Shown here: positions 28,252 through 51,241 of the stretch, piece by piece
How the letters are laid out: each line of letters opens with the position of its first letter
Position numbering within the stretch: the stretch's first letter is position 1
NCBI GenBank assembly: GCA_947499555.1
Contig: CANMOU010000001.1
Span: 62,001 to 126,000, forward strand
Length of the DNA: 64,000 nt
Source of the DNA: an uncultured Roseovarius sp.
GTDB taxonomy: Bacteria > Pseudomonadota > Alphaproteobacteria > Rhodobacterales > Rhodobacteraceae
Direction: 5' to 3'
Made by a program: the position numbers and the translations under genes
The notes under the pieces: model-generated
Database searches by the model: none
What the model was told of the DNA's origin: nothing
Seen by the model: the letters and a program-made list of their open reading frames with translations, nothing else

Positions 28252-28276
28252 GGAACCATTCGCTAGCTGAGTTGTT
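28252..28276 (+). promoter_or_regulatory. Putative EcfG-type promoter upstream of the entericidin gene
   Basis: GGAAC at 28252-28256, 16 bases, then TGTT at 28273-28276. The -10 element differs from CGTT by one base. It lies 29 bases ahead of the entericidin start. Confidence 0.5.
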
Positions 28277-28305
28277 TCCCTTCTGCATGAAGTAAGGAGA
28301 CGGAA

Positions 28306-28443
28306 ATGACACGCAAGTTTGCATTCATGGCACTTATTTCAATAACTGGTCTGGCCGCGTGCGAGACCGTGGAAGGTGTCGGTCGAGACATCGAGAAGGG
28401 TGGCCAAGCCATAACTGAGACCGCTGAGGACGCCCAATCCTAA
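28306..28443 (+). CDS. Entericidin A/B-family small lipoprotein
   Basis: A 45-aa protein with a signal peptide and lipobox (ISITGLAAC, Cys19), then ETVEGVGRDIEKGGQAITET, the characteristic entericidin motif. Membrane lipoprotein, stress-induced in many proteobacteria and suspected to affect envelope integrity. AAGGAGACGG precedes the ATG. An EcfG-like promoter lies upstream, which fits the stress block that starts here. Confidence 0.85.
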   Translation: MTRKFAFMALISITGLAACETVEGVGRDIEKGGQAITETAEDAQS

Positions 28444-28504
28444 GAGCGCTTGGGGCATATCTGTCCCGTCGCCGCAAAATTCACAAATAAATCTGGAGGT
28501 TCTC

Positions 28505-29026
28505 ATGAATATCCTCAAATCAGCAACTGTTTCTGCAACTGTTCTTTTGACATCTACAGCTGCTCTTGCATCGCAAGACGTCTGGACATCTGTCGATGTT
28601 GAGGCAGACCTGTCGGCTTTTGAACAGAGCAACGCCTTAGACTATTGGCCAACCCTAGAGCGCGACCTATCCGCCGCTATCGCTGAGCGTGTTGACATTC
28701 GTGCAGGTGAAGATGCTCCTGCGCTGCGCGTCGAAATTAACAAAGTCGCAATCGATGGGAACGTTGTGCTCCCGGCAACGGGTGAGTTCAACGAAATCGT
28801 CGGTACGATTGCTGTGATCGATGATGGCGTCCCGACGTCGAGCAACAACGAAGTCGCAAGTCAAAATATTCCTGAGCAAAGCTTCGCGCTGCGTGTCTAC
28901 GCCCAATTGGAAGAAGGCCAGACGCCACCAGAAGGCTACATCCTAGTGGCACCGTCGAAGGATGACTTCTACACCGCGCTGGTCGACGCGTACGCGAAAG
29001 AAGTAGTCGAATATGTAGAGCAATAA
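28505..29026 (+). CDS. Exported hypothetical protein
   Basis: A 173-aa protein with a clear signal peptide (MNILKSATVSATVLLTSTAA, then LASQ) and an acidic mature domain. No family is recognised. GGAGG is 5 bases before the ATG. It probably shares a transcript with the entericidin gene (61-base gap), and the unit ends at a strong terminator. Confidence 0.7.
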   Translation: MNILKSATVSATVLLTSTAALASQDVWTSVDVEADLSAFEQSNALDYWPTLERDLSAAIAERVDIRAGEDAPALRVEINKVAIDGNVVLPATGEFNEIVGTIAVIDDGVPTSSNNEVASQNIPEQSFALRVYAQLEEGQTPPEGYILVAPSKDDFYTALVDAYAKEVVEYVEQ

Positions 29027-29049
29027 CTGCTCACAAGGGTAACGAGTTT

Positions 29050-29078
29050 ATCGGGGCGTATCGCGCCCCGATTTTTTT
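29050..29078 (+). terminator. Rho-independent terminator
   Basis: ATCGGGGCG, a short loop and CGCCCCGAT form a 9-bp GC-rich stem followed by seven T residues, 23 bases after the exported protein gene. Confidence 0.9.
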
Positions 29079-29271
29079 GTGCTTGTTTGAGTTAGGTTGC
29101 GCGTCGATGGCGGAAAATAAGTGTAGCAGGGTCAGGCTTAAGCGCCTTGATGACTTGCACCCTTGAGTGCGCGTATCAAAATTGTTTGGAGATTAAACCA
29201 GACGTTTAAATCCTGTAGTTAGGTATCTTGGGAAAAGGTTGGAGGAAGCAGTCCAGACTATGCCCTAAGCC
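29079..29271. other. Short intergenic spacer
   Basis: Separates the terminator from the convergent MATE gene. I see nothing definable in it. Confidence 0.3.
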
Positions 29272-30675
29272 TTAGCCTGAACCCGGTGCGTTGAGCTTTG
29301 ATTGCAGCCACGAGGCCGGGGTGGCAACGCCTTTCCACCCAATCTTCAAGAGACCAACAGACTGGCACGCTACGAGAGCGGCCCAGATGACTGCCAGATT
29401 GGCCACAACGGACCCCACCAGTATGCCGGTGTAACCGGCCACCAATACACCAAGCCACGCAAAAGGTGTGTAAAGTAGCGCGATGCGTCCGGCGCTTAGC
29501 CACATCGACCATTTGGCTTTGTCACGGGCGTTCATAGCTGCGGTGGCGGTAATCAGAATACCATATCCTAGGAATCCCCAACTGACGATACGCAGGTAGC
29601 TGGCGGCATAAACCGCCGGTTCATCAGAGTTGGTCACAAACCGAGCCACGGGATCCGCCAGGACATGAAACAGCGTCGCCAATGCCAATCCGAAAATGAC
29701 ACTAGAGACAAAACAAATCCTTAACGCATGTCGTGCGCGGTCTTGTTTTTTGGCTCCCCAGTTTTGCCCGACGACGGGTCCAATCCCAGATGACAGAGCC
29801 AGCAAGGGAACCAAAACAAAGGATTGAACGCGTCCTGCAGCACCAAATCCTGCGACAGCTGCATCGCCGATTGTCGCGACTGCGGCTGTGACCAAGGCCA
29901 TGCCGACTGGGTTGATCGCATTGGACAATGAGGCAGGCACGCCAACACGAGCTAGGTTCTTGGTAGACGGGAGAAGGTCGGTCCATGGCGCGCATCGGAA
30001 ATCGAGAATTCGGGTTTTCCAGGCAAAGAAAAACAGCCCGATGAAACTTACGATTCTTGCGATCAGAGTTGCCAAACCGGCTCCGGTCATACCCAATTCG
30101 GGAACAGGTCCCAGACCAAAAATGAAAATTGGATTAAGAGCAATATTCAGAGCGGCCTGCAGAACCATAGTGGTTGCCGCAACCGTGCTGTTGCCTGCAG
30201 CGCGAAAGACGGCTGACAAAACCATGACCGCTACGATGAATGGGAAGCTAAGGCACCAATAGGGTATGTATGAAAGTGCGGCTTTTAGGACAGCTTCTTT
30301 CGCCCCCATTGCTGTGAACAAGGCTGGTGCGGCCCAAAAGAACAAGCCACTTACCAGAAGCGACAAGACCACTCCGAGGCCAATCGCATGGATCGTCAGT
30401 CGTCTTCGACTGGCAGCATCATCGCCGCGACCAATCGCGTTTGAAACCACGGTATTTGTGCCAGCCGACAACCCAATCGAAAGCGACATCAGAGCGACAA
30501 TAACAGGGTAAACGAAACCAATCGCGGCCAGCTCAATTTTGCCCACCCGCGCAAGAAATAGAGAGTCGGAGAGCCCGACTGCTAACGTACCCAGAATACC
30601 AAGTGTCATAGGTGCGCTAACCCAAAAGAGAGCCAGCGCAACCGAGCCCTTGGTCAGATCTCTTTCTGTGTTCAT
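29272..30675 (-). CDS. MATE family efflux transporter
   Basis: A 467-aa inner-membrane protein with the 12-helix plan and two-fold pseudo-repeat of MATE (NorM/DinF) antiporters, which export cationic or aromatic compounds using Na+ or H+. Family blocks include LSDSLFLARVGKIELAAIGFVYP, GAGLATLIARIVSFIGLFFF and GPVVGQNWGAKKQDRARHAL. The start is ATG at 30675. No EcfG-type promoter is visible upstream, so it may not belong to the island's stress regulon. Substrate unknown. Confidence 0.9.
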   Translation of the reverse strand: MNTERDLTKGSVALALFWVSAPMTLGILGTLAVGLSDSLFLARVGKIELAAIGFVYPVIVALMSLSIGLSAGTNTVVSNAIGRGDDAASRRRLTIHAIGLGVVLSLLVSGLFFWAAPALFTAMGAKEAVLKAALSYIPYWCLSFPFIVAVMVLSAVFRAAGNSTVAATTMVLQAALNIALNPIFIFGLGPVPELGMTGAGLATLIARIVSFIGLFFFAWKTRILDFRCAPWTDLLPSTKNLARVGVPASLSNAINPVGMALVTAAVATIGDAAVAGFGAAGRVQSFVLVPLLALSSGIGPVVGQNWGAKKQDRARHALRICFVSSVIFGLALATLFHVLADPVARFVTNSDEPAVYAASYLRIVSWGFLGYGILITATAAMNARDKAKWSMWLSAGRIALLYTPFAWLGVLVAGYTGILVGSVVANLAVIWAALVACQSVGLLKIGWKGVATPASWLQSKLNAPGSG

Positions 30676-30918: not shown

Positions 30919-31857
30919 TCACTCTGCCGCTATCGCCTTGACTGTCTTCGAGACATCGTCCAATGGAACCGCCGAATTCTCGTGGACAAGCGTTCTTGTC
31001 GGGAACGGAATGTTGATATCAGCGTCGTCAAGCGCCTCTTTGACCTTGCGCTTCATATCAGCCTGGTACTGAAAGTAGACGTCGCTGTCACACCAGACAC
31101 GCACCAGGAAATCAACACTGCTGTTGCCAAGGTTGTTCACCTGTATGAACGGTTCAGGATCTGAATGTGATCTCTCGTCTGCCATCACGGTATCACGAAT
31201 GACGTTCTCTGCTTTGGCCAGGTTCACCCCGTAGCCTACGCCAAACGTCCACTCGGCACGACGCGTCGGGTATGATGAATAATTCCGAATAGTGTTTCCC
31301 CAGACTTCGGAGTTTGGGACTACAACCTGTACATTCCCTAGATCAGCGAGCTCAGTATAGTTTAGCGTAATGTTCTTCACAGTGCCCATCACACCGTTCA
31401 CTGTGACGAAATCGCCAAGCTTGAGCGGACGGAATAGGATTATCATGACGCCGGCAGCGACGTTGGACAGCGTGCCTTGAAGTGCCAGGCCAACGGCCAG
31501 GCCCGCCGCGCCGATGACAGCTACGATCGAGGTCGTCTCGACGCCGAACGTGTTCAATACAAACAATGCTGTAAAGGCAAGTATGGCATACCGAATGATG
31601 TTAGAAAGGAAATTGAAAAGGGTGTCGTCCAGTCTTTGGTGCTTTTCACCTAGTTTCTTGATCCTGCGTCCGAGGATCCCTGAGATGGTAAAGCCCAATG
31701 CGATTATGAGCATCGCTCCTACGATACTTCCTGTGATACTCAGAATTGTTTCTAAGGTGATCAGGTCCGAAAGTGACTTGCCACCATAGATGTTTTCAGA
31801 CCAAAGTGACGTCATCCAATTGGTGGCTTCATCTGCCATTACTTCTAGATTTTCCAT
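30919..31857 (-). CDS. Mechanosensitive ion channel family protein (MscS)
   Basis: A 312-aa small-conductance channel that releases solutes on osmotic downshock. Three N-terminal membrane helices are followed by the pore helix (GAAGLAVGLALQGTLSNVAAG) and the beta domain (PLKLGDFVTVNGVMGTVKNI, then LNYTELADLGNVQVVVPNS), all diagnostic. Size is that of the MscS core. A canonical EcfG promoter lies 31 bases upstream, so it should be induced by the island's own sigma factor. Confidence 0.93.
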   Translation of the reverse strand: MENLEVMADEATNWMTSLWSENIYGGKSLSDLITLETILSITGSIVGAMLIIALGFTISGILGRRIKKLGEKHQRLDDTLFNFLSNIIRYAILAFTALFVLNTFGVETTSIVAVIGAAGLAVGLALQGTLSNVAAGVMIILFRPLKLGDFVTVNGVMGTVKNITLNYTELADLGNVQVVVPNSEVWGNTIRNYSSYPTRRAEWTFGVGYGVNLAKAENVIRDTVMADERSHSDPEPFIQVNNLGNSSVDFLVRVWCDSDVYFQYQADMKRKVKEALDDADINIPFPTRTLVHENSAVPLDDVSKTVKAIAAE

Positions 31858-31887: not shown

Positions 31888-31912
31888 AACGCGTTTGAGG
31901 CAAAAAAGTTCC
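31888..31912 (-). promoter_or_regulatory. EcfG-type promoter of mscS
   Basis: On the minus strand GGAAC (31912-31908), 16 bases, CGTT (31891-31888): a full match to the alphaproteobacterial general stress consensus. Confidence 0.8.
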
Positions 31913-31985: not shown

Positions 31986-32816
31986 TTAAGCTTTAAGAGT
32001 CTCGGTCGATGAAAAGAACATGGCCTGACTGACAGCAGATTTCACCTGCGCTTCCGTATAAGGCTTGGAGATCAGGAATGCTGGCTCCGGCCCTTCGCCA
32101 GTTAACAAACGCTCTGGGAAGGCTGTGATGAAAATGACAGGTCTGTCACCGTGCTTTTTCAGGATCTTGTTAACCGCATCAATTCCGCTGCTGTTATCCG
32201 CAAGTTGGATGTCCGACAGAATAAGATCGCTGGTTTCCCTCTCTGCGAGTTTCAGTGCACCTTCTTCTGTCCTCGCAATTCCGGTCACTCGGTGGCCCAG
32301 CTCCGACATCATCGTCTCAAGATCAATGGCAATGATTGACTCATCTTCGATAATCATGACACGGCCTGTCGTGAGCTTGGCCATTTCCGAATATGCAATC
32401 GTTACAAGTTCTTCTGCTTCGCTACTGGTTACAGACAAGATACTTGCTAGGTCATCAAACGAAAACTCTTCGATCGTGTGCAGCAGAAGTGCCTCGCGCG
32501 TATTCGGCGTGAGTTTGCTCAAGCGATCCTGGACCTTAGCTTCTATTGGGGACTCAACATCGCTCGTATTAACCGGCTCTCCGGTGGACGACCAAATCGT
32601 GTGGAAGGCCTGAAACAAAGCCACTTTGGGCGCATTTTCATGATTAAAAGAGCTAGGATCGGCTAAAATGGCTTCCAAAGTTGCCATGGCGTAATTGTCG
32701 CCTGATGACTGTTTCCCTGTAAGCGCACGAGCGTACCGCCTCAGAAACGGAAGATTTTCCCCAATTAGATCAGCTAGTTGAGCGTTGGAAGGTCCCGTCA
32801 TTTTGGTTTTTCCCAT
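31986..32816 (-). CDS. phyR: General stress response regulator PhyR
   Basis: A 276-aa protein with an N-terminal sigma-factor-like domain (about residues 10-145) and a C-terminal receiver domain (about 152-268). Phosphorylation is expected at Asp202 (LILSDIQLAD), with the acidic pair Glu157/Asp158, Thr231 and Lys251 in place. In this pathway phosphorylated PhyR binds the anti-sigma factor NepR through its sigma-like domain and so frees EcfG. It is divergent from nepR-ecfG and its promoter overlaps theirs. The ATG at 32816 is used; a second in-frame ATG lies 15 bases inside. Confidence 0.96.
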   Translation of the reverse strand: MGKTKMTGPSNAQLADLIGENLPFLRRYARALTGKQSSGDNYAMATLEAILADPSSFNHENAPKVALFQAFHTIWSSTGEPVNTSDVESPIEAKVQDRLSKLTPNTREALLLHTIEEFSFDDLASILSVTSSEAEELVTIAYSEMAKLTTGRVMIIEDESIIAIDLETMMSELGHRVTGIARTEEGALKLAERETSDLILSDIQLADNSSGIDAVNKILKKHGDRPVIFITAFPERLLTGEGPEPAFLISKPYTEAQVKSAVSQAMFFSSTETLKA

Positions 32817-32834: not shown

Positions 32835-32859
32835 GGAACATAACGCGTTGGTGCGCGTT
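32835..32859 (+). promoter_or_regulatory. EcfG-type promoter of nepR-ecfG
   Basis: GGAAC (32835-32839), 16 bases, CGTT (32856-32859), 36 bases upstream of nepR. It implies positive autoregulation of the sigma factor. Confidence 0.82.
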
Positions 32860-32867
32860 AAAGTTCC
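32842..32867 (-). promoter_or_regulatory. EcfG-type promoter of phyR, overlapping the nepR promoter
   Basis: On the minus strand GGAAC (32867-32863), 17 bases, CGTT (32845-32842). Together with the plus-strand site it makes an almost symmetrical face-to-face promoter pair. Confidence 0.78.
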
Positions 32868-32894: not shown

Positions 32895-33071
32895 ATGGAT
32901 CAGAATAAAAAAAATAGACGGACTGAGTCAGAAGTCGACAGGCACATCGACGAAAACCTCAAGAAGGTTTTCGATGACATGGCAAATCAGCCGGTGCCTG
33001 ATCGTTTCACCAAATTGTTGGACCAATTGCGGACCGGTAGCTCGAACAAGCCGGGTGGCGCCGATGCTTGA
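32895..33071 (+). CDS. nepR: Anti-sigma factor NepR
   Basis: A 58-aa protein with the NepR core IDENLKKVFDDMANQPVPDR and FTKLLDQL, the two short helices that bind either EcfG or the PhyR sigma-like domain. The gene overlaps the start of ecfG by eight bases, so the inhibitor and sigma factor are translationally coupled, as is usual. Confidence 0.93.
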   Translation: MDQNKKNRRTESEVDRHIDENLKKVFDDMANQPVPDRFTKLLDQLRTGSSNKPGGADA

Positions 33072-33609
33072 CCCGCAAGATGAAATTGTTGAGCATATTG
33101 GGCCGATGCGCGCTTTCGCGATGAGCTTGTGCCGCAACCATGCGACGGCGGACGATATTGTTCAGGAATCCTTGGTCAAAGCTTGGAGCAACCTTGAGAA
33201 GTTCGAGGCCGGGACAAATATGCGCGCTTGGCTCTTCACTATTGTGCGAAACACTTATTTCTCTTTGCACCGCAAACGCAGGCGCGAAGTTGAAGATGTC
33301 GATGGTGAAATGGCTGACAGCTTGTCTCAGAAGCCCGAGCATGACGGCCGCTTGGTGTTCAGAGACTTTGCAGGCGCATTTAACGCCCTCACAGATGACC
33401 AGCGCGAAGTGCTGATATTGGTTGGCGCTCAGGGTTTCTCTTACGAGGAAGCTGCAGAGATGTGTGATGTTGCAGTCGGCACGATCAAAAGTCGGGTCAA
33501 CCGCGCGCGTGCGAGATTGGCTGAATTGATGGAAATCGAAGATGGAGATCCCGTCGATGTCACTGATGCAGTCACGACCGGAATAGTCGCCGCCCGTCCC
33601 GCGGCCTAA
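33064..33609 (+). CDS. ecfG: ECF sigma factor EcfG (general stress response)
   Basis: A 181-aa ECF sigma factor. Region 2 is visible in HATADDIVQESLVKAWSNLE with NMRAWLFTIVRNTYF, and region 4 in LTDDQREVLILVGAQGFSYE with AVGTIKSRVNRARARL. The ATG at 33064 (MLDPQDEIVEHIGP) lies inside the end of nepR; the frame is open far upstream, but that part is antisense/nepR sequence. Its expected targets are the GGAAC-N16/17-CGTT promoters repeated across the island. Confidence 0.95.
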   Translation: MLDPQDEIVEHIGPMRAFAMSLCRNHATADDIVQESLVKAWSNLEKFEAGTNMRAWLFTIVRNTYFSLHRKRRREVEDVDGEMADSLSQKPEHDGRLVFRDFAGAFNALTDDQREVLILVGAQGFSYEEAAEMCDVAVGTIKSRVNRARARLAELMEIEDGDPVDVTDAVTTGIVAARPAA

Positions 33610-33611
33610 AA

Positions 33612-35381
33612 ATGGCGGTGCCTACGCATTCTTTCAGACTGACATTTTTGCTAGCGGGTCTCATAACCTTCGCGCTGTTACCCTTGGGGGTCATCGGCAT
33701 TTGGCAAACCAATGCCGTTATGAACGAAGCAGAAGAACAGACACGTGACGGGGTGCTAGCTCAAACGGTCGAGCTTGCTAGCAACGAACGAGATGTACTG
33801 CAACGGGCAATAGGAGCTGCTAGTGCGCTGAGCGCTTTGTTTCCAGTAACAGCACAGGACAACGAGCGATGCGGCTTGTTGATGAAGGATTTTGTATCGG
33901 ACAACAAAGACTTTGTGTTTGCGGGGTGGATTGAACCCAGCGGGCTTATGAAGTGTCATTCGGGTCCGGGTGAATTTAATTTCTCATCACAGCCAGCCTT
34001 TCAGGAGTTGGTGGCAACGCCAAAGCTGTCCTTCGAGATAAACAGACAAGGAAGTGTTACGGGCGAATCTGTGATTATCGTATCGCAGCCCGTTTTTGAA
34101 AACGAAGAGCTCAAGGGCTTCGTTTCGATTTCTATTCCGCACTGGGTGGCCAGTATGCAATCTGACAACCTGACTGAACAGGGCATTGTTGTCGCACTCG
34201 TTGATAAGGGCGGTGAAATCCTGGCGTCGAGCGTCGGACTAGAAAAAACAAAGGGCTTTTTGCCCTCGACAGAAGAGACACGTTTGCTGTTTGGGCAGTC
34301 AGGCAGTACGTTCTTGGGCAAGAGTGCAGCGGGAGAGAGTCGTTTCTTTGCCATCAGCAGTCTGTTGCCAGACCAGGTGGTTGTTATTGGGAGTTGGCCA
34401 GAAGAAGTTGCCCAACTCGCGGCAGGCAATCGAAAAACGGCTCTGACGCTCGCATTTCCGATTTTGATGTGGATCGCCGGCTTGGGCGTCGCGCTGTGGG
34501 GCCTATATCAACTTGTTCTTCGCCATTTGAACGTCTTGCGACGTGCCCTCGGCAGTGTTGCCAAGGGCGACAGGCGTCACTTGCAAGCGATGCGTTTTGC
34601 GCCACAGGAATTTCAGGACGTTGAGCGGGATTTTAACAATATGGTCGAACTTGTCAGTGCCGCCGAGGCGCAACAAGAAGACGATCTGCGGCAAAAAACG
34701 CTGCTGCTGCGCGAAGTGCACCACCGGGTCAAAAACAACCTTCAACTTGTCGCGTCAATTATGAACATGCATGGTAGAACTGCAAACACCCCCGAAGCGC
34801 GCCGCCTTTTAAATCAGCTACAACGTCGTGTTCGTGGACTGGCTACAGTGCACAATACGCTAAACACGAAATCGCAGATGGCGTCTGTCGATACGAAGGA
34901 ACTTGTTGAAAACCTAACGCGTGAGCTTGGTCAACGACCGGCTATCAACGGCAAGACTGTGGAAGTTTCGGTTGATGCTTTGTCGGTACACATAGGTCAA
35001 GATCAGGCAGTTACGCTTTCTATGCTAGCGGCAGAGGCCCTGACCAATGCGGTAAAGTATGTCGGGATCCCAGACGGCGGCAAACCCGAAATCCATGTGT
35101 CTCTTACCCAAGATGTCTCTGGCGATCTCAGGTTTGAAGTTGTCAACAGCCGCGGGGCGATGGCCGAAAACGAAGACATTGAATTGCTTGAAAGCAGCGG
35201 AATTGGTCAGCGCCTAATGAAAGCATTCGTGCACCAACTCGAAGGTATGGTGAACGTGCAAGAAGAGGTCGACCGATACACTTACACAGTGACGTTCCCA
35301 ATCGACGAGATGCAATCTGATGAGCCACCGATCTTGAGGTCAGAGGACACAGAAGATGATCGCACCGAAGCAGCAGAGTGA
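33612..35381 (+). CDS. Membrane sensor histidine kinase of the HisKA_2 type (PhyK-like)
   Basis: A 589-aa kinase. One membrane helix near residues 10-32 and another near 280-300 bracket a periplasmic Cache-like sensory domain. HAMP-like sequence follows, then the HisKA_2 dimerisation domain with phospho-acceptor in LLREVHHRVKNNLQLVASI (His370) and an HATPase domain (LAAEALTNAVKYVG, SGIGQRLMKAF). HisKA_2/HWE kinases are the usual activators of PhyR. It starts 3 bases after ecfG, so it is almost certainly in the same operon and the natural cognate kinase. The signal sensed is unknown. Confidence 0.92.
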   Translation: MAVPTHSFRLTFLLAGLITFALLPLGVIGIWQTNAVMNEAEEQTRDGVLAQTVELASNERDVLQRAIGAASALSALFPVTAQDNERCGLLMKDFVSDNKDFVFAGWIEPSGLMKCHSGPGEFNFSSQPAFQELVATPKLSFEINRQGSVTGESVIIVSQPVFENEELKGFVSISIPHWVASMQSDNLTEQGIVVALVDKGGEILASSVGLEKTKGFLPSTEETRLLFGQSGSTFLGKSAAGESRFFAISSLLPDQVVVIGSWPEEVAQLAAGNRKTALTLAFPILMWIAGLGVALWGLYQLVLRHLNVLRRALGSVAKGDRRHLQAMRFAPQEFQDVERDFNNMVELVSAAEAQQEDDLRQKTLLLREVHHRVKNNLQLVASIMNMHGRTANTPEARRLLNQLQRRVRGLATVHNTLNTKSQMASVDTKELVENLTRELGQRPAINGKTVEVSVDALSVHIGQDQAVTLSMLAAEALTNAVKYVGIPDGGKPEIHVSLTQDVSGDLRFEVVNSRGAMAENEDIELLESSGIGQRLMKAFVHQLEGMVNVQEEVDRYTYTVTFPIDEMQSDEPPILRSEDTEDDRTEAAE

Positions 35382-36861
35382 CGAAGAAGACCGCTTCGAA
35401 GTATTAATCACGGCTCAGGAAGCCTGGCCAGCATTCGAGCGGGCCGTACTTCGTGCAAAACGCGAAGTGCAGTGCGGATTTCGTGTCTTTGATCCATCGA
35501 CTGCTCTTCGAAATCCTGAAGCGCAAGCCGTTGGATCGACATGGTTCGATCTATTGGCACATGTCTTGAGAAAGGGCGTGCGCGTTCGGATGGTGCTCAG
35601 CGACTTTGATCCAGTTCTAGCGACTGCTTTGCACGAGATGACTTGGCGGACAAAACGCCAGATGGTGGCTTTGAAAGAAATTGTTGGACCCGAGGCAGCA
35701 AAAAGGCTCGAGGTTGTCGCGTCTTTGCATCCGGCCCGTGCGGGTCTTCTCCCAAGGACATTTTTCATGCCTGCCGTTCTTCAAAAGATGAAAAACCAGT
35801 TAGACCGCCTGTCACCAGCACGGTTGAAAAGAGAAGCCGTCGGCTTGAACGCATCGGATTGGCCAAGGCTGCACACAGTTACCCATCATCAGAAGCTTGC
35901 CGTAATAGATCGAGAAACATGTTACATCGGTGGGTTAGATTTGAACGAACGACGATTTGATACGAAACAGCACGAGCAGGACGCTCATCAAACCTGGTCT
36001 GATGTGCAGGTGATTGTACGCGGTCCGGAGGCCGAAGAAGCAGCCCAGCACCTAGAAAGATTTCTGGACCAAATCGAAAAGAGCGATGCAGGGAAGGAAG
36101 GAACATTTCTTCGCCGCACTCTGTCGTCACCGCGCCAGGTTGCGTTTTGGCGCCTGTCACCAAAGACTATAGCGCACGAGATCGAAGATGATCACATCGC
36201 GGCTTTTCATGCCGCAAGACATTTGTTGCATATCGAGACGCAGTACTTTCGTTCCAGAAAACTGGCGGGAGAGCTAAGCAAAGCAGCAAGCAACAATCCC
36301 GACCTTGGTCTCATCCTGGTTTTACCGTCGCTTCCTGAAGAAGTGATTTTTGATGGTCATAAAGACTTGGATGCTCGGTACGGGTTATCTTTGCAAAGCG
36401 AGTGCATCGAAATGATCAAAGATGCGTTTGGGTCGCGTGCATGTATCACAAGCCCCGTGCAACCGAGATTTGCCGCTCGCGAGGATGAGGCCACGCTTGC
36501 TGGATCGCCAGTCATCCACGTCCATAACAAGGTGTTGGTGCAGGATGACGAATTTGCTTTGATTGGATCCGCTAACCTAAATGGTCGGTCCATGAGGTGG
36601 GACACTGAAGTCGCGCTTCGCGTAACATTGTTGGACCGGGTCAGAAGACTTAGAGAGGCACTTTATAGCCATTGGTGGTTCAAGAGCCCCCCGCTAGGCG
36701 CATTTGAACTGTCGAGCGCGGTGTCTTGGTGGAACGATGAGGTCCGACGCAACGGACTGCGCCGACCTGAAGCCCGGACTGGCTTTCTTGTGCCGCATGA
36801 CCCGGATCAACTCAGCGACTTTCGTCAGCCGCTTCCGGGTGTGACGGAGGATATCGTTTAG
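35356..36861 (+). CDS. Phospholipase D-like protein
   Basis: A 501-aa protein with two HKD motifs, HHQKLAVID followed by GGLDL and HVHNKVLVQDD followed by GSANLN, the catalytic pair of the PLD superfamily. There is no signal peptide or membrane helix, so it probably acts at the inner face of the membrane. It could be a phospholipase or a transphosphatidylase such as a cardiolipin-synthase relative. It overlaps the end of the kinase gene by 26 bases and so is part of the EcfG operon, linking membrane lipid remodelling to the stress response. Confidence 0.9.
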   Translation: MIAPKQQSDEEDRFEVLITAQEAWPAFERAVLRAKREVQCGFRVFDPSTALRNPEAQAVGSTWFDLLAHVLRKGVRVRMVLSDFDPVLATALHEMTWRTKRQMVALKEIVGPEAAKRLEVVASLHPARAGLLPRTFFMPAVLQKMKNQLDRLSPARLKREAVGLNASDWPRLHTVTHHQKLAVIDRETCYIGGLDLNERRFDTKQHEQDAHQTWSDVQVIVRGPEAEEAAQHLERFLDQIEKSDAGKEGTFLRRTLSSPRQVAFWRLSPKTIAHEIEDDHIAAFHAARHLLHIETQYFRSRKLAGELSKAASNNPDLGLILVLPSLPEEVIFDGHKDLDARYGLSLQSECIEMIKDAFGSRACITSPVQPRFAAREDEATLAGSPVIHVHNKVLVQDDEFALIGSANLNGRSMRWDTEVALRVTLLDRVRRLREALYSHWWFKSPPLGAFELSSAVSWWNDEVRRNGLRRPEARTGFLVPHDPDQLSDFRQPLPGVTEDIV

Positions 36862-36863: not shown

Positions 36864-37904
36864 TTACGACAATGCTGGTTTGTTGGCCGTGCAAAAGTCA
36901 AACTTGGCAGGCGATATCAGTGCGCTGAACCAAACGATCACAGGTAAAGCAACAATCGCTCCGATCGGTCCCCAAAGCCAAAGACCAAAAACAATGGCCA
37001 GAAACACACACAATGGATTCATCTGAAGCCTCTGACCGACGAATGCAGGGGTCACAAACTGCGCTTCGATGATATTGAGCATCAGGAATGCCGCGGGCGG
37101 CAGAAGCGCCATGGCACCTGTGAACTGGATCATCCCAGCAATCAACAGGCTGAAGATGATGATGAGCGGCCCCAGATAGAGCACGAAGTTAAGCAAGCCT
37201 GCTGCAAGTCCCCACAAGATTGCGCTGTTCACGCCCAAGCCTGTCAGAATGATTGCGGTCGCGATGCCGAGCCCAACATTTACAACAGTCACGGCCGCGA
37301 AGTAACGTGCGACCGCTGTATCTGCGAGGAGTAGATTATCACGCCAGACCCCAGCGGCGGCATACAAGTCTGCGCGGGTCAAAACGAAGAAGAAGAGTGT
37401 CCCGACAAAGATAAAAATTTGGGATGCAAAATTTGGTGCAAGCCAGACGGCGTCCATAACCGAAGGGATTGCGGCTGTCGTCGTTTCCTTCGTTCCGCCT
37501 TCGACAGTTTTCTCGATTTCGTCGCTTATCGCTTCAACACCGCGGAGCAGGTCTGACAATGTGAAGATCCATCCTTGCACTTCACGCTTTATGTCCGGAA
37601 GCTCTTCGACCAGGAGTGTCAAAAGTGGTTCCAGCAAGAGAAAGGCAAATACTACCAAGCTGGAGGTTACGATTAGCAAAAAGCCTGCGACTGCAACGCG
37701 TGGACACCCCAAACGAGATAGCCTGTCTGCGGCAGGAGAAACGACGATGCCGAGCACCAAGGCAAAGACCATGGGCGCAAGAATGGTTTTTGCAAAAATA
37801 AGGGCACCTGCGAGAATAATCGCCGTAACAACGGCGGCCATTACTCGAAGCGCTGTTGGACCTTTGATAAGATCAAGCGCAAGTGTTTTGTCGTCCGCAC
37901 GCAT
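36864..37904 (-). CDS. AI-2E family transporter
   Basis: A 346-aa membrane protein of the AI-2E (UPF0118) family with seven to eight helices (ILAPMVFALVLGIVVSPAAD, GPLIIIFSLLIAGMIQFTGA, GLWLWGPIGAIVALPVIVWF). Members export diverse substrates or act as Na+/H+ antiporters; the substrate here is open. It is the last gene of a four-gene minus-strand operon and ends two bases from the convergent PLD gene, leaving no room for a separate terminator. Confidence 0.88.
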   Translation of the reverse strand: MRADDKTLALDLIKGPTALRVMAAVVTAIILAGALIFAKTILAPMVFALVLGIVVSPAADRLSRLGCPRVAVAGFLLIVTSSLVVFAFLLLEPLLTLLVEELPDIKREVQGWIFTLSDLLRGVEAISDEIEKTVEGGTKETTTAAIPSVMDAVWLAPNFASQIFIFVGTLFFFVLTRADLYAAAGVWRDNLLLADTAVARYFAAVTVVNVGLGIATAIILTGLGVNSAILWGLAAGLLNFVLYLGPLIIIFSLLIAGMIQFTGAMALLPPAAFLMLNIIEAQFVTPAFVGQRLQMNPLCVFLAIVFGLWLWGPIGAIVALPVIVWFSALISPAKFDFCTANKPALS

Positions 37905-37909
37905 GAACT

Positions 37910-39529: not shown

Positions 39530-39563
39530 GTCTGCGACTCCTCTATTTGACATTCGCAGGCAC

Positions 39564-39588
39564 AACGCAGGTGATGATCATTTGTTCC
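39564..39588 (-). promoter_or_regulatory. EcfG-type promoter of the DUF883/holin/DUF3618/AI-2E operon
   Basis: On the minus strand GGAAC (39588-39584), 16 bases, CGTT (39567-39564), 34 bases from the first start codon. Full consensus match. Confidence 0.8.
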
Positions 39589-40689: not shown

Positions 40690-40714
40690 GAACAAAACGA
40701 TGTCTTCGAGCGTT
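40689..40714 (+). promoter_or_regulatory. EcfG-type promoter of the Pmp3/DUF4112/CsbD operon
   Basis: GGAAC (40689-40693), 17 bases, CGTT (40711-40714), 49 bases before the Pmp3-like start. The first base coincides with the last base of the BrkB stop codon. Confidence 0.78.
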
Positions 40715-40921: not shown

Positions 40922-40922
40922 A

Positions 40923-43107: not shown

Positions 43108-43132
43108 GGAACTTTCATTTGCTCCGAACGTT
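43108..43132 (+). promoter_or_regulatory. EcfG-type promoter of the exported PRC-barrel gene
   Basis: GGAAC (43108-43112), 16 bases, CGTT (43129-43132), 54 bases upstream of the start. Full consensus. Confidence 0.8.
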
Positions 43133-43977: not shown

Positions 43978-44727
43978 TTAGATCAAAGGACGTGATTCGG
44001 CTTCGCTTGTTTCGGCCAGGCCAGCGTCTCCAAGCTTCTCCAGATCCAGAATTTCCAACGTCCCTTCCGACCAAGTCGCAAGACCCGCATCTCGCAGCTT
44101 TGAAAGGGTTTTGTTTGTGTGCACCAAGGAAAGGCCCAGCGCATCCGCAAGATCCTGTTGCCGGAAGGGCAGGGGGCATTTGTTGCCCTCTGCAAGACCG
44201 ACAGCACGGGCGCGTATAAAGAAACGGTGTAGGCTCCATGCAATTTTTTCCAGCGCACCTTTCTGCCCGACGGTTGCGAGCGCATCGCCCAAAAAGTGCT
44301 CTTCCACTGCCGCGAGGTATGTCAAAGCATAAGCGCGCTCTGGTTGGTTTTGATAAAGATCATACAGGCGCGATCGATTAAACACGCAGAGTTGCATCTG
44401 CGTCGTCGCTTCCACTGAATGACGCATTTCGCCCATGACACCAGCTTGCAACCCGACAAAGTCACCTGGCATTACGAAACCAATAACTTGTCGGCGTCCA
44501 TTCTCCAATGTCTTGTAGCGTATACCAAGGCCTGACAAAGCGGTGTAGAGCTGTGCCGCCTTTGCGCCTTCTATGAAAAGCTGCGTTCCGGGTTCTGCCA
44601 TCATTTCGCCAGTCTTGAACCTGTTCATGAAGGCGATCTCGTCTGATTTGAACGGCAGAAATGCCGGCTTTTTTCGCAGCGGGCATTGTTCACAATTAAC
44701 GATCATTTTGTTTGCTTGGTATGTCAT
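43978..44727 (-). CDS. Crp/Fnr family transcriptional regulator
   Basis: A 249-aa protein with an N-terminal CEQCPLRKK segment (two Cys), a cyclic-nucleotide-binding-like beta barrel (FIEGAKAAQLYTALSGLGI, then GRRQVIGFVMPGDFVGLQAG) and a C-terminal Crp-type HTH (PFRQQDLADALGLSLVHTNK). Two N-terminal cysteines are fewer than in a classical Fnr iron-sulphur site, so oxygen sensing is not assured. It is divergent from a small receiver-like protein and probably controls nearby genes. Confidence 0.88.
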   Translation of the reverse strand: MTYQANKMIVNCEQCPLRKKPAFLPFKSDEIAFMNRFKTGEMMAEPGTQLFIEGAKAAQLYTALSGLGIRYKTLENGRRQVIGFVMPGDFVGLQAGVMGEMRHSVEATTQMQLCVFNRSRLYDLYQNQPERAYALTYLAAVEEHFLGDALATVGQKGALEKIAWSLHRFFIRARAVGLAEGNKCPLPFRQQDLADALGLSLVHTNKTLSKLRDAGLATWSEGTLEILDLEKLGDAGLAETSEAESRPLI

Positions 44728-46056: not shown

Positions 46057-46081
46057 AACGCCTGCTTCCAGGTTTTGTTCC
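46057..46081 (-). promoter_or_regulatory. EcfG-type promoter of the small membrane protein unit
   Basis: On the minus strand GGAAC (46081-46077), 16 bases, CGTT (46060-46057), 24 bases from the start codon. Full consensus. Confidence 0.78.
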
Positions 46082-46161: not shown

Positions 46162-46809
46162 TCAGCTGGCGAAAGCACGATCAAGTGTTTCAGCTTCATC
46201 TCGTTTGATGGCAAACACCAAATAATCGTTCGTCTGCAACTCGGTCTCTGGATCCAGGAAGAATTCTTTTTCATTACGAATTCCGGCGATCGGGCGGGCC
46301 GATTCCGGTAGGTCCATATCAGCCAAAGAACCGCCCGGGTGATCTTTGGGTACCTGAACTCGCTTCAAAGCAAGCTCGTTGTTGAGCATGGCGGCGTTGT
46401 CGACAGCGGCTTTGTCTTCAAGACCTGCGCATATACTTTCAGCCACAGCGGCATGCGGGTTGATGACATCTTTCAGCTCAAGTTCTTTGCAAATATCCAT
46501 AAGCTCGCGCGATGTGATTTGCGGGATAACGCGCCCATAGCCAACAGACCGCGCGACGATTGACGCCAGAATGTTGTCATCAGATGCGTTCGTAACCGCG
46601 ATAAAGACATCATCGCTGTCGCTAAATGCCTCTCTTAAGGTCGTTGGAAGCGTGCCATCCCCCTCGATCATGCCGCAATCAAGTCTTTCGCTGAGCTTTT
46701 CGAGCCGTTCGCGGTCCTTGTCTATGATGACGACTTCGTGCTTTGCATTGATGAGATTCTCGGCAATCGCCGTGCCGAACCGCGAGGCCCCGAGTATAAT
46801 TGCTCGCAT
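46162..46809 (-). CDS. trkA: TrkA-type NAD-binding K+ transport regulator
   Basis: A 215-aa protein with an RCK_N Rossmann domain (MRAIILGASRFGTAIAENLI, VVIIDKDRERLEKL) and an RCK_C ligand-binding domain (ALKRVQVPKDHPGGSLADMD). The size is that of a single-repeat KtrA/TrkA gating subunit. It follows the trkH gene by three bases, and the two should form a K+ uptake system for osmotic adaptation. Confidence 0.92.
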   Translation of the reverse strand: MRAIILGASRFGTAIAENLINAKHEVVIIDKDRERLEKLSERLDCGMIEGDGTLPTTLREAFSDSDDVFIAVTNASDDNILASIVARSVGYGRVIPQITSRELMDICKELELKDVINPHAAVAESICAGLEDKAAVDNAAMLNNELALKRVQVPKDHPGGSLADMDLPESARPIAGIRNEKEFFLDPETELQTNDYLVFAIKRDEAETLDRAFAS

Positions 46810-46812
46810 CTT

Positions 46813-48276
46813 TTATCCTTTCTTCAACCAAGTGCCCGGTGCAAAAAGCACTAGAACTGCAATAAATTCCAAGCGACCCAGCCACATGGCAAAGGTCAGC
46901 GACAGCTTCAGGTCCGGGGAAAGATCATTGCCCACGACACCGACAGACAAACCAACAGTGGATAGAGCCGAAATCACATCAAAAAGCGCATCAACGGGGG
47001 GATGTCCGTGGATCAGAAAATGAAACCAGACAAGCAGGAGCGTCGACACATAGATCGCAATCAGCCCCGCAATCGCGATGATCATGCCATCTTCAACTTT
47101 CTTTCCATCCTGCCGAAGTGGAACAACCGCGTTTCTGGGCATCGAAGGCGCCCGGATAGAATGGTGCAATGAGCGAAACAAAAGGCCCACGCGCGCAATT
47201 TTTAGCCCCCCTCCGGTTGAGCCGACATCAGCACCTAGAGCCATGGCAATAAGCAGGATGACGAGTGCGGCACCCGTAATGTCCACAGGACCTGCGGAGT
47301 ATCCAGCGGTCGAAATGGCAGAGAGCAGGTTGAGTATCTGCTGTGAAAGATCGGTCCGGATTTCATTGGGCGATAGAGCCCATGCGAAAAACAGCAAACT
47401 GCCCAACAGAATAGAGACAGTCACAAGACGGTTGATAGACCCCAACTGCCAGGCGTCTCGCAACTTGCCTTGCGTGATCAGAATGTAGGTCAGAAAGGAT
47501 ATCGCCCCCAAAAGGCAAGTCAAAATAACCACACTTTGGCCAGCCAACGAATAAGATGACAGACTGTCAGACCTTGGTGCAAATCCGCCTGTAGAAATAC
47601 CTGACAACGTAAGAACAAGTGCTTCGCGCAAGTCCGGTATGAAAACTGCTGTTATGCACGTCATTGCGGCTGTCAGACAGAGATACACGATTAGAAGTTG
47701 CCGCGCCTGCCTGCGTGTTGATGAGATGCGATCGCCCTGATCAATGCCTGCGCGTCCAAGACGGCGAGCTGTCACGCCCGGTGGTAAGATCAGCGCCAAC
47801 ACAGCCGTGGCCATAACAAGACCCCCGATCCACTGAATCCACGCGCGAAACACATGGGCTGCGAAAGGCCAGTTATCTGGGTTCGCCGCTACGGAAAGAC
47901 CTGTCGTGGTCACTCCGCTCATTCCCTCAAACAGCGCATCGACGGGACTCATCCCGAGGCTCACAAACGCCGGGATGCTTACCAAACTAGAAAACAGGAA
48001 GATGAGCGCCAGTGTGACCAGCGCTTCAACGCCACGCAAATCATCGGGAAGGGCAATTCGCAGAACCGACAGGTACGCAAGCAGAGCGATTGTGGCCGGA
48101 GCTGCCAATGCCAAAGCCAAGTCCCACGCATCCTCCAAAGCCGCCCAGATCGCCGGGGGCAAGAGCAAAATGACCAAAATGGGTGTGTGTTTGGCCAGTG
48201 TCAGAGCCACAACCCCAGGCCTAGCTGTTTGCTTTAGGGTATCCGACCCGTCGCGCATGGGACCTTTGGTTGACAT
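46813..48276 (-). CDS. trkH: TrkH family potassium uptake protein
   Basis: A 487-aa membrane protein of the TrkH/KtrB superfamily with the four selectivity-filter-like loops, seen around EGMSGVTTTGLSV, LSGISTGGFAP, LSAISTAGYSA and VISALSTVGLSV. The pore subunit for K+ import, gated by the neighbouring TrkA. No EcfG motif is seen in the 275 bases upstream, so control may differ from the other stress genes. Confidence 0.94.
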   Translation of the reverse strand: MSTKGPMRDGSDTLKQTARPGVVALTLAKHTPILVILLLPPAIWAALEDAWDLALALAAPATIALLAYLSVLRIALPDDLRGVEALVTLALIFLFSSLVSIPAFVSLGMSPVDALFEGMSGVTTTGLSVAANPDNWPFAAHVFRAWIQWIGGLVMATAVLALILPPGVTARRLGRAGIDQGDRISSTRRQARQLLIVYLCLTAAMTCITAVFIPDLREALVLTLSGISTGGFAPRSDSLSSYSLAGQSVVILTCLLGAISFLTYILITQGKLRDAWQLGSINRLVTVSILLGSLLFFAWALSPNEIRTDLSQQILNLLSAISTAGYSAGPVDITGAALVILLIAMALGADVGSTGGGLKIARVGLLFRSLHHSIRAPSMPRNAVVPLRQDGKKVEDGMIIAIAGLIAIYVSTLLLVWFHFLIHGHPPVDALFDVISALSTVGLSVGVVGNDLSPDLKLSLTFAMWLGRLEFIAVLVLFAPGTWLKKG

Positions 48277-48552: not shown

Positions 48553-48828
48553 TTAGTATTTCTGACGCGCGGCGAGGCCGATGAGTACGCCAATCCCAAC
48601 CGCGCCGGCAACAGCAAGCATCGGGTTTTCCTTGACGAACTTGCTGCCTTGGTCCGCGACAGAATTCAGCGGTTCACCGACGTGTTTCTTGGCCGCCTCA
48701 GCAACGGAGTTTGCAATGTCGGTCCCGGTCTCCACCGCAGCCTCGGCCTGCTCCTTTGCGGTCTCTCTTACTCCATTTGACTTGGTCTTCGAAGATTCGT
48801 TTGCAGTCGCGATTGTTGAATTGCTCAT
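48553..48828 (-). CDS. DUF883 family protein
   Basis: A 91-aa protein with an amphipathic helical body and a C-terminal membrane segment (VKENPMLAVAGAVGIGVLIG, then LAARQ), the ElaB/YqjD-like DUF883 pattern. In enteric bacteria such proteins tether inactive ribosomes to the membrane in stationary phase. Its start lies 24 bases from a canonical EcfG promoter. Confidence 0.88.
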   Translation of the reverse strand: MSNSTIATANESSKTKSNGVRETAKEQAEAAVETGTDIANSVAEAAKKHVGEPLNSVADQGSKFVKENPMLAVAGAVGIGVLIGLAARQKY

Positions 48829-48851: not shown

Positions 48852-48877
48852 AACGTGTGACCGACTGAAAAAGTTCC
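48852..48877 (-). promoter_or_regulatory. EcfG-type promoter of the DUF883 gene
   Basis: On the minus strand GGAAC (48877-48873), 17 bases, CGTT (48855-48852). It is back-to-back, two bases apart, with an EcfG promoter on the plus strand. Confidence 0.8.
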
Positions 48878-48879
48878 GT

Positions 48880-48904
48880 GGAACAAATTCGGCATCCTGG
48901 CGTT
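48880..48904 (+). promoter_or_regulatory. EcfG-type promoter of the DUF1328 gene
   Basis: GGAAC (48880-48884), 16 bases, CGTT (48901-48904), 38 bases from the start. Confidence 0.8.
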
Positions 48905-48941: not shown

Positions 48942-49106
48942 ATGCTTTCATGGGCACTTATTTTTTTCGTTCTCGCCATCGTCGCTGCCGCTTTCGGCTT
49001 TGGTGGTATCGCCTCAGCGTCAGCTGGTATCGCGCAAATTCTCTTTGTCGTGTTCATCGTGTTATTCTTGATTTCGCTGGTCTTTCGAGCAGCACGACGG
49101 TCATAA
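48942..49106 (+). CDS. DUF1328 small membrane protein
   Basis: A 54-aa protein with two membrane helices ([20 protein letters not shown], then [20 protein letters not shown]), the YtjA/DUF1328 pattern frequent among stress-induced genes. AAAGGAAAGGAAACACT precedes the ATG. Too short to stand out by length, but the family match is clear. Confidence 0.92.
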
Positions 49107-49222: not shown

Positions 49223-49247
49223 GGAACAAACTCGCCGCGCTCGGGTT
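49223..49247 (+). promoter_or_regulatory. Possible EcfG-type promoter of dps
   Basis: GGAAC (49223-49227), 16 bases, then GGTT; one mismatch in the -10 element. It lies 30 bases before the dps start. Confidence 0.45.
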
Positions 49248-49277
49248 TACGATTCAACCAACAGAAAGGAATTTACT

Positions 49278-49775
49278 ATGACAGAAGCATTGCACGTTGT
49301 TCCAAGCTCTGACGACATCTCAACAGGCGTTCGCAATACAGAAACTCTAGCTAAGGGCTTGGGTGACATTTTGGCGGACACGTATCGGCTGACTTTCAAG
49401 ACGCACGCCTATCATTGGAACGTAGAAGGTCCGCTCTTTTATTCGATTCACAAGCTTACCGAAGAGCAGTATGAGAACATGTTTGCCGCTGCAGATGACT
49501 TGGCAGAGCGCATTCGGGCTCTCGGTCAACTCGCGCCATCGAGCTTGAAGTCTATTGTTGAGATGTCGCGGGTGTCAGATGCAGAGGACGCATTGTCAGC
49601 GGCTGAGATGGTCGATGATTTGGCGCGGGATCACGAACAAGTCGCGCACAGGCTTCATGCACTTGCCGCGATCGCAGGCGAAAACAAAGACATTGTGACA
49701 GAAGACTTGGCGACGGAAAGATCTGCTTTTCACGAACAAGCCGCCTGGATGCTCCGGGCGATCACCAAGTCCTGA
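49278..49775 (+). CDS. dps: Dps family DNA-protecting ferritin-like protein
   Basis: A 165-aa ferritin-like protein of the Dps/MrgA family, which stores iron with peroxide as oxidant and protects DNA. The ferroxidase region is recognisable in YRLTFKTHAYHWNVEGPLFY and EEQYENMFAAADDLAERIRA. ATG at 49278 is preceded by GAAAGGA; the frame is open upstream, but that region is intergenic. It fits the oxidative-stress part of the EcfG regulon. Confidence 0.93.
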   Translation: MTEALHVVPSSDDISTGVRNTETLAKGLGDILADTYRLTFKTHAYHWNVEGPLFYSIHKLTEEQYENMFAAADDLAERIRALGQLAPSSLKSIVEMSRVSDAEDALSAAEMVDDLARDHEQVAHRLHALAAIAGENKDIVTEDLATERSAFHEQAAWMLRAITKS

Positions 49776-49816
49776 ACCAGTCCCCGCCTTCTCCCACGTG
49801 TCCCGGAGAAGGCGAC

Positions 49817-49845
49817 GGTCCGTCGGTTGTAGCAACCGGCGGACC
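49817..49845 (+). terminator. Long hairpin after dps
   Basis: GGTCCGTCGGTTG-TAG-CAACCGGCGGACC forms a 13-bp stem with one wobble. A short T-poor tail follows, so it may terminate only partly and let transcription run into the next two genes. Confidence 0.65.
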
Positions 49846-49902
49846 GGCCTTATTGGCAGATTTGAAACTCAACTGCACAAACATTCTTCCAAGGAGCAAG
49901 CG

Positions 49903-50340
49903 ATGGAAGTTCAAAAAGTACCCGTACAGGATGAACCGGTGCCGGCCCTAAGCGATCTGACAACGGACGTCGTGGATGTCATCGGCGGCTATGAGTATGC
50001 GGTCGAACGCGCGGAGACCGGTATCAGACCCACACTGGAAAAACTTTTGAACATTCACCGACGGCACGCAGCCGAACTTATGGAAGCTGTTTCCAAAGCC
50101 GGCGGTCATCCGGACTCGTCTGGATCAATGATGGGGGCCGTGCACAAGGCAGTTGTCGCTTCACAAAACTGGTTCGGCGAGTTGGATATGAGCACGCTCG
50201 ATGGGTTCTTTGACGGAGAAGAGCGACTTCTAAGTTCATACGACGAAGCCGCGGCGGCATCTGACAGCGTGCCAGAGGTCAGCAAAGTCGTGTGCGATCA
50301 ACGCGCTGAACTCAGGAGCTTGTTGCAACAGCTGCGCTAA
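49903..50340 (+). CDS. DUF2383-like ferritin-fold protein
   Basis: A 145-aa helical protein resembling PA2169/DUF2383 four-helix bundles (LTTDVVDVIGGYEYAVERAE, LNIHRRHAAELMEAVSKAGG). ATG at 49903 has AAGGAGCAAGCG upstream. Related proteins belong to the ferritin-like superfamily but have no proven function. Position after dps suggests a linked oxidative or starvation role. Confidence 0.75.
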   Translation: MEVQKVPVQDEPVPALSDLTTDVVDVIGGYEYAVERAETGIRPTLEKLLNIHRRHAAELMEAVSKAGGHPDSSGSMMGAVHKAVVASQNWFGELDMSTLDGFFDGEERLLSSYDEAAAASDSVPEVSKVVCDQRAELRSLLQQLR

Positions 50341-50389
50341 GTCTCGGCTCCGCCGGGCTAAGAGGCGCAAGGTAGTGACAGAGGGGACA

Positions 50390-51241
50390 ATGACCAGCAC
50401 TTCAGATAACGCCATCGAATTGACGCGCCAAGAAGAAGATGACGCGATTGAAGAAGCCGTAGGTTTGTCACCTGTTTTGGTTTTTGAAACCATTCGCCGC
50501 GACGGAGAGGAAGAACTCGAGCGTCCCGCGCGAGCTTTGTGGTTTTCCGGGATCGCGGCGGGTTTGCTTATCTCATTTTCAGTCCTCGGCGAAAGCATCT
50601 TTCGAGCGTACCTGCCAGATCAATCGTGGCGCTATCTGCTGGAGAATGCTGGCTACAGCCTGGGGTTCTTGCTCGTCATTCTGGGGCGGATGCAGCTTTT
50701 CACCGAGAACACAATCACCACAGTTGTTCCGGTCACCCTTAACCCGACTAAAGCGGCGTTCGCGCGCACGGCTAGGCTTTGGACCATTGTACTAAGCGCC
50801 AACGTCGTAGGCGCGTTTTTTATCGCTTCGCTCTTTGCGTATGGCGGTATCCTGTCAGATGACGTGTTTAAAGCCATGGTGGACTTGAGCCACCACGCTA
50901 CCGGAATGCCTGCGATGGAAGGTCTGCTCAAAGGTATACCCGCCGGTATTCTTATTGCCGCTATTGTGTGGATGTTACCTTCGTCTCAGGGCAGCGAAGT
51001 CGCGGTTATCGTTATATTCACCTGGCTGATTGCTTTGGGTGACTTTACTCATATCGTTGCTGGATCTGTTGAAATGGCATTTCTTGTTGTGCTTGGGGAG
51101 CTAGGTTTTTTGCAGGCGGCGTTTGGCTTTTTCGTACCTGTTCTGATCGGCAACGTGATCGGTGGTACGGTCATTTTCACAATGCTGACTTGGGCCCAGG
51201 TGCAGCCAGAGGTGGAGCAAACCGACGAAGCGGCGAATTGA
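50390..51241 (+). CDS. Formate/nitrite transporter family protein
   Basis: A 283-aa membrane channel of the FNT superfamily, YfdC-like. It has a long charged N-terminal tail (LTRQEEDDAIEEAVGLSP) and six helices, with GRMQLFTENTITTVVPVTLN and GIPAGILIAAIVWMLPSS typical of the family. The start at 50390 is favoured by AGAGGGG. The long N-terminus and stress context suggest the YfdC branch, whose cargo is unknown. Confidence 0.88.
   Translation: MTSTSDNAIELTRQEEDDAIEEAVGLSPVLVFETIRRDGEEELERPARALWFSGIAAGLLISFSVLGESIFRAYLPDQSWRYLLENAGYSLGFLLVILGRMQLFTENTITTVVPVTLNPTKAAFARTARLWTIVLSANVVGAFFIASLFAYGGILSDDVFKAMVDLSHHATGMPAMEGLLKGIPAGILIAAIVWMLPSSQGSEVAVIVIFTWLIALGDFTHIVAGSVEMAFLVVLGELGFLQAAFGFFVPVLIGNVIGGTVIFTMLTWAQVQPEVEQTDEAAN

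Follow-up and report, generated by a model that had tools for sequence, protein, structure and literature searches.

The 64-kb window analysed here (the whole stretch of DNA, contig C1 62001-126000 of the 3.73-Mb, 23-contig genome of an uncultured Roseovarius sp.) carries a complete PhyR-NepR-EcfG response. We conclude, with a probability of roughly 80%, that this response, a PhyK-like sensor kinase and almost the whole recognisable regulon make up a 23-kb module (about 28.25-51.26 kb), which is cargo of an integrative element of ~40 kb (about 20.28-60.42 kb). Positions without a contig name are those of the window.

The regulator core consists of phyR, back to back with nepR, ecfG, a Cache/HisKA_2 kinase gene and a PLD gene, and Pfam confirmed all five genes, which had been named in an earlier reading of the letters alone (the original prediction). 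The PhyR protein contains both a sigma-like domain and a receiver domain and matched PDB entries 4qic and 3n0r. NepR has its core motif, and its gene lies directly 5' of ecfG and overlaps it. EcfG, whose class name we take to be ECF15, contains regions 2 and 4 of the extracytoplasmic function (ECF) sigma factors. The ecfG gene is divergent from phyR; the two are divergent and adjacent in 130 of the 137 loci compared, some genomes being counted twice. The kinase is called PhyK-like by domain and position only, because its score with the PhyK model NCBIfam NF051872 is 181 bits, below the cut-off of 750. A genome-wide search found a single full-length PhyR and a single NepR, which are both in the window, and no second copy of either; for these two genes it answers the check for a second phyR/nepR/ecfG set that had been proposed. 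Two PF22029 matches elsewhere (C1:1559610 and C2:685925) were rejected as a second PhyR; neither was recovered when full-length PhyR was the query, a search in which every one of the genome's 19 candidates received a score, and both are taken to be sigma factors.

Candidate EcfG promoters are concentrated around this core. GGAAC/CGTT is presumably the EcfG promoter consensus, as the original prediction had also assumed. The strict motif GGAAC-N16/17-CGTT has nine matches in the window, each exactly where it had been predicted (9/9; Table 1), and 100 dinucleotide shuffles of the window gave a mean of 1.38 matches, with none of the 100 reaching nine. The three weaker sites proposed earlier also exist, each with one changed base in the -10 box. 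Eight of the nine strict sites start with GGAACAAA or GGAACTTT and the ninth with GGAACATA. The genome as a whole has 47 strict matches, compared to 126 for a reversed-pattern control. With an extended -35 box (GGAACWWW-N13/14-CGTT) the genome total falls to 12, nine of them here (reversed control 9). When the -10 box was relaxed (GGAACWWW-N14/15-GTT), 11 of 20 genomic sites were found here within 17 kb, and the reversed control gave 29 genome-wide. The binomial probability of this concentration is 2.9e-21 for the 17-kb span, which was picked after the sites were seen, and 3.5e-17 over the whole 40-kb element.

The sites are conserved in a relative, G372, whose PhyR is 87% identical to the one studied here. 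The module (28295-51262) recurs in G372 at a different location with its first genes rearranged. For all nine strict sites a strict motif is present at the corresponding place in G372, eight by direct alignment and the MscS site by its position in a collinear stretch. In the eight aligned sites both boxes are preserved and the spacers are partly altered. Among the weaker sites, 39670 aligns with a strict CGTT site in G372; for 28252 the correspondence is one of position and not of alignment, a strict motif lying close to the equivalent gene; and 49223 is strict in neither genome. Because the boxes are kept in G372, which is our best evidence, we regard the sites as predicted promoters. By position, the putative targets would include phyR itself; nepR-ecfG, possibly with the kinase and PLD genes; dps with the DUF2383 and FNT genes behind it; and the entericidin gene. 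The TrkH-TrkA pair has no strict site upstream in the window scan and no match within the G372 module.

The module lies in an element that splits a tRNA gene. It had been predicted that the regulator and its sites sit in a tRNA-inserted element; an integrative element does carry them, but the target is a tRNA-Gly gene, split at 20.28/60.41 kb, and not the tRNA-Trp/Arg array at 25.8-26.1 kb. The 3' end of that array has no second copy in the window (up to 3 mismatches), and the tRNA-Gly halves fit instead. The split point is in the anticodon loop. The joined halves (20249-20289 plus 60419-60451) equal the intact tRNA-Gly of the genus genome G339 at 74/74 bases, and ARAGORN reads them as tRNA-Gly(tcc). 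The core shared by both ends is 13 bases here and ~9 in relatives in which both ends are present. The intact tRNA-Gly(TCC) near the right end is the sole one in the genome by the pattern used (up to 3 mismatches). Thus the element has the features of a tRNA-dependent element: an integrase, a short core, a target tRNA split and not rebuilt, and a tRNA of the same isotype carried along. The GC content is 0.523 inside the element, 0.563 to its left and 0.609 to its right. No phage structural genes were identified among the element proteins searched.

Two observations complicate this simple picture. G372 and another relative, G324, share with our genome both the DNA right of 60519 and that leading up to the intact tRNA (from 60067), so the intact tRNA could be either element-borne or an older resident. 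Moreover, what originally lay left of the target tRNA was not recovered in comparisons with relatives: the left sides in G323 and G324 have no match to our sequence, and that in G372 has one short matching region. G372 has the intact tRNA and the 3' half and lacks the extra 5' half.

Similar elements occur elsewhere in the genus. A 5'-half pattern search found a 5' half of any kind in 60/85 genus genomes and an extra one in seven. Six of these seven, including ours, have a kindred integrase beside the half, the other five integrases being 71-77% identical to ours in amino acids, and in five of the six a 3' half follows the intact tRNA. G339 has the 5' half, integrase and intact tRNA, but the stretch examined there showed no 3' half. 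Two cases are weak: in G375 the two element ends are on one contig but far apart, and G311 has an extra 5' half but no integrase kin in the 20 kb examined. The distance from half to intact gene is 29-40 kb in our genome, G295, G298, G339 and G364. The loci L265-L277 (G339, G295, G298, G364 and G375) are members of one family of elements that split tRNA-Gly(TCC) and have related integrases. All five of these elements lack phyR: a PhyR match is absent from four of the genomes, and the one in G339 is 2.3 Mb from the element.

Table 1. Features of the stress module and of the element that carries it
Feature	Position	Strand	Evidence
5' half of split host tRNA-Gly(TCC); attL core GCCTTCCAAGCAA at 20277-20289	20249..20289	+	sequence
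Tyrosine integrase (Arm-DNA-bind_3 + Phage_integrase)	20366..21502	+	Pfam
tRNA-Trp/Arg/Arg/Arg array, element cargo	25773..26072	+	ARAGORN
Weak EcfG site (TGTT) 5' of entericidin gene	28252..28277	+	sequence
Entericidin-like lipoprotein	28306..28443	+	sequence; PF08085
MatE transporter	29272..30675	-	Pfam
MscS-type mechanosensitive channel	30919..31857	-	Pfam
Strict EcfG site 5' of MscS	31888..31912	-	motif scan
phyR	31986..32816	-	Pfam PF22029, PF22233, PF00072; NCBIfam NF006623 345.7 bits, cut-off 240
Two overlapping, opposed strict EcfG sites between phyR and nepR-ecfG	32835..32867 (starts 32835, 32842)	both	motif scan; G372 alignment
nepR	32895..33071	+	PF18557 53.9 bits, cut-off 25.7
ecfG (most likely start)	33064..33609	+	PF04542, PF08281; NCBIfam NF009198 above its cut-off
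PhyK-like Cache/HisKA_2 (HWE) sensor kinase	33612..35381	+	Pfam; Cache match below curated cut-off
PLD-family gene	35356..36861	+	Pfam
Putative operon AI-2E transporter / DUF3618 / Holin-X / ORF 39050-39553 (the last with no Pfam family above cut-off)	36864..39553	-	Pfam
Strict EcfG site of AI-2E/DUF3618/Holin-X operon	39564..39588	-	motif scan; G372 alignment
Near-consensus EcfG site (GGTT) 5' of BrkB	39670..39695	+	motif scan
BrkB-family membrane protein	39730..40689	+	Pfam
Strict EcfG site 5' of DUF4112 gene (40869-41336)	40689..40714	+	motif scan; G372 alignment
Strict EcfG site 5' of PRC-barrel gene (43174-43794)	43108..43132	+	motif scan; G372 alignment
Crp/Fnr regulator	43978..44727	-	Pfam
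Strict EcfG site 5' of three small genes (transmembrane protein, TUDOR PF11160, PLDc_N PF13396)	46057..46081	-	motif scan; G372 alignment
TrkH-TrkA potassium uptake pair	46162..48276	-	Pfam
DUF883-like protein	48553..48828	-	Pfam match below its cut-off
Two opposed strict EcfG sites between DUF883-like and DUF1328 genes	48852..48904 (starts 48852, 48880)	both	motif scan; G372 alignment
DUF1328 small membrane protein	48942..49106	+	sequence; PF07043
Near-consensus EcfG site (GGTT) 5' of dps	49223..49247	+	motif scan
Dps/ferritin-like protein	49278..49775	+	Pfam
DUF2383 gene, 3' of dps	49798-50340		Pfam
FNT channel gene, 3' of DUF2383	50375-51241		Pfam
Intact tRNA-Gly(TCC) near right end	60241..60314	+	ARAGORN, pattern search
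3' half of split tRNA-Gly, starting ~90 bases past the intact tRNA-Gly; attR core 60406-60418	60406..60451	+	sequence

The element has other cargo besides the module. A reverse transcriptase gene (55295-56695, in the region 54397-57190) lies beside a PDC-S31/DUF2971-type gene and just downstream of two 117-nt repeats that are 99% alike. Its best PADLOC match is a generic reverse transcriptase model, followed by RT_UG17, and the NCBIfam group II intron model scored below its cut-off; the locus is possibly an anti-phage system. An RNA ligase gene is found near the tight tRNA array (23903-26072), a pairing which to us is reminiscent of phage tRNA repair. Three direct repeats of the TCCGCTTTGGGCTC.CAGCGGACAT type occupy 26109-27170, between the array and the stress module. 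Tad-type secretion genes (16652-20013) are directly left of the element, and further left 5971-9724 matches, at 64-70% DNA identity, a stretch ~18 kb from the G372 module. In G372 itself, genes for MgtC, DUF2254, an outer-membrane protein and TspO (L136 12304-16094) adjoin the module and are perhaps further cassette members there.

We then compared phyR regions (40 kb per genome; 33 kb for G063) across the family. PhyR matches were found in 142/295 family genomes (two weak, with E about 1e-11) and in 50/85 genus genomes. In 37 family genomes, a non-random set made up largely of the top PhyR matches together with 11 genus members, ours included, the regions hold 241 strict sites, where the remainder of each genome predicts 20.8; for the reversed control the figures are 25 and 36.1. 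Apart from our own, genome sizes were taken to the nearest 0.1 Mb, and G047, with two loci, was left out. The enrichment is at least 4-fold in 34 of the 37, the weakest being G071 (1.7-fold), G300 (3.4-fold) and G154 (3.9-fold). Outside the family, 10 of 28 PhyR-positive alphaproteobacterial genomes were used; they have 29 sites where 5.9 are expected (5 and 8.0 for the reversed control), and six of the 10 reach 4-fold, with the phyR/nepR promoter itself making up part of this. The median enrichment is 10.7-fold in the family and 5.0-fold outside (P = 0.002, for non-random samples). Genes similar to those of the module recur in 29 sampled phyR regions, in matches that may include paralogues and with nepR and entericidin left out: Crp (15), PLD (14), Dps (13), FNT (12), BrkB (10), AI-2E (8), MscS (7) and PRC2 (7). 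Others are rare or missing (DUF4112, TrkA and TrkH 2 each, Holin-X and DUF2383 1 each, DUF883 0), and the integrase, reverse transcriptase, RNA ligase, transposase and other genes outside the module have no match in any of the 29. A protein search of plasmids returned 304 records, 34 at 80% cover or more. PhyR relatives of 54-65% identity are on plasmids of D. shibae, Roseobacter, Gemmobacter and Ketogulonicigenium, and each of five plasmid loci compared has island-type neighbours near phyR. A quick LG+G4 tree was built from PhyR+EcfG at 120 loci and has long outside branches; in it our locus and that of G372 cluster with Aestuariivita boseongensis and Ruegeria arenilitoris (support 99), and the 17 Roseovarius rows need at least six label changes. 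A single Roseovarius clade was rejected (approximately unbiased test, P = 2e-5).

These data bear on whether the cluster reflects the element, the locus or merely what is easiest to see. One explanation is that EcfG controls a global regulon of which the phyR neighbours are only the most visible part, the host targets having degenerate promoters. Outside the window there are 38 strict matches, and the context was read for 21 of them. One full-consensus site, C1:495008, lies 33 bases 5' of a gene for a 69-aa glycine-zipper lipoprotein and, although also spanned by a 242-codon open frame, is likely a host target. The nine relaxed sites outside comprise this one, four in frames of at least 263 codons, and four with a changed -10 box outside long frames, which may be weaker candidate targets: C1:603395 (140-aa frame 153 bases downstream), C2:635220 (162-aa frame 25 bases downstream), C1:10635 (165-aa recombinase-like frame 27 bases downstream) and C6:92966 (46-aa frame 103 bases downstream). 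Nevertheless, the outside matches are below the genome-wide reversed controls (38 against 126 strict, 9 against 29 relaxed), so that motif density elsewhere is not equal to that in the island, and 16 of the 21 are inside open stretches of at least 300 codons, compared to one of nine island sites (31888). We consider a global regulon rather unlikely. The regulon had been called self-contained, and it nearly is, apart from C1:495008 and the few sites with a changed -10 box.

A somewhat stronger competitor, though one we still hold only tentatively, is that clustering is an ancestral habit of the phyR locus in the family and the island is incidental. The enrichment in 34/37 family genomes and in six of ten outside, and the similar neighbours in the 29 regions, fit this explanation; such clustering is a common property of phyR regions in the family and hence no special feature of this island. 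On the other hand, PhyR is patchy in family and genus, the genus proteins do not form one clade, phyR is found on plasmids, and the same module is at different places in our genome and G372. An ancestral neighbourhood and a cassette can both be true together. That the locus is decayed or silent cargo appears very improbable: its carrier is a putatively mobile element with a transposase and a foreign tRNA array, and likely host targets are few, but the named genes are open reading frames and the promoter boxes are kept in G372 while the spacers partly change.

Several points weigh against our interpretation of the module as the cargo of a mobile element holding the regulon. The strict motif alone has the outside matches described above, though fewer than its control. 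The WWW-extended -35 box favours island-type sites because it was derived from the island's own sites. None of the proteins searched was identified as a conjugation protein, and a second copy of the element with this cargo was not found. In addition, PhyR of Rhodobacter sphaeroides seems to be more specialised, in membrane and ultraviolet stress, with a moderate effect on RpoE (PMC5830050), so a general stress role is not assured here.

If the module works as its genes suggest, the Cache/HisKA_2 kinase would sense stress and phosphorylate PhyR, and phosphorylated PhyR would bind NepR and free EcfG. The freed EcfG would transcribe from the GGAAC/CGTT promoters, starting with its own divergent phyR and nepR-ecfG promoters and continuing with nearby operons that serve osmotic release, the envelope and DNA protection or encode small membrane proteins. 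The tyrosine integrase would integrate the element at the 13-bp core in the anticodon loop, splitting tRNA-Gly(TCC), and the element would supply an intact tRNA-Gly for the split gene; it may be mobile at present. The original prediction had regulator and regulon travelling together in this element. They do appear together, but because the module is elsewhere in G372 and the five kindred elements lack phyR, the 23-kb module, not the element, seems to be the moving unit.

Regulator and local targets thus behave as a cassette, which here appears to hold nearly the whole regulon. Whether the "general" stress response of Rhodobacteraceae is a transferable cassette of switch, kinase and local targets, gained or lost as a unit on plasmids and tRNA-splitting elements and controlling few host genes, we judge an even question. 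Transfer of a global stress sigma factor is generally considered difficult, since the genes that it controls are dispersed. A regulator moving with its promoters could function at once in a new host, and cassette transfer would help explain why PhyR is present in about half of the family genomes searched. A single deletion or a plasmid-cured strain should abolish the whole response, which makes the system testable.

The titles and abstracts we covered, mostly outside the subscription literature, describe neither a clustered EcfG regulon nor any stress-response island. The closest system is the RSP_1274-1271 locus of R. sphaeroides, which has the same PhyR-NepR-EcfG proteins and phyR divergent from nepR-ecfG-kinase (PMC5830050). 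Unlike that locus, ours is in an integrative element with most recognisable sites of the genome within 17 kb of phyR. The plasmid loci of Dinoroseobacter shibae (pDSHI02), Roseobacter ponti (p1), R. litoralis (pRLO149_94), Gemmobacter aquarius and Ketogulonicigenium vulgare share PhyR and the sigma gene with, variously, PLD, Dps, DUF1328, Crp, PLDc_N, DUF2945, BrkB, FNT, AI-2E and PRC genes. They differ in being plasmid-borne, not tRNA-borne, and in their neighbour sets, R. litoralis having only BrkB. Mycobacteriophage tRNA-dependent lysogeny is reported to follow the same plan of a split tRNA, an integrase and an intact replacement tRNA (PMC10865867), whereas our element is alphaproteobacterial and has stress-regulon cargo and no phage structural gene among the proteins searched. 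The tRNA-borne genomic islands collected in Islander likewise have an integrase beside a tRNA fragment; the usual island is reported to restore the split gene from its own sequence (PMC4383910), whereas in our case the two halves are left unjoined and a complete second tRNA gene is carried.

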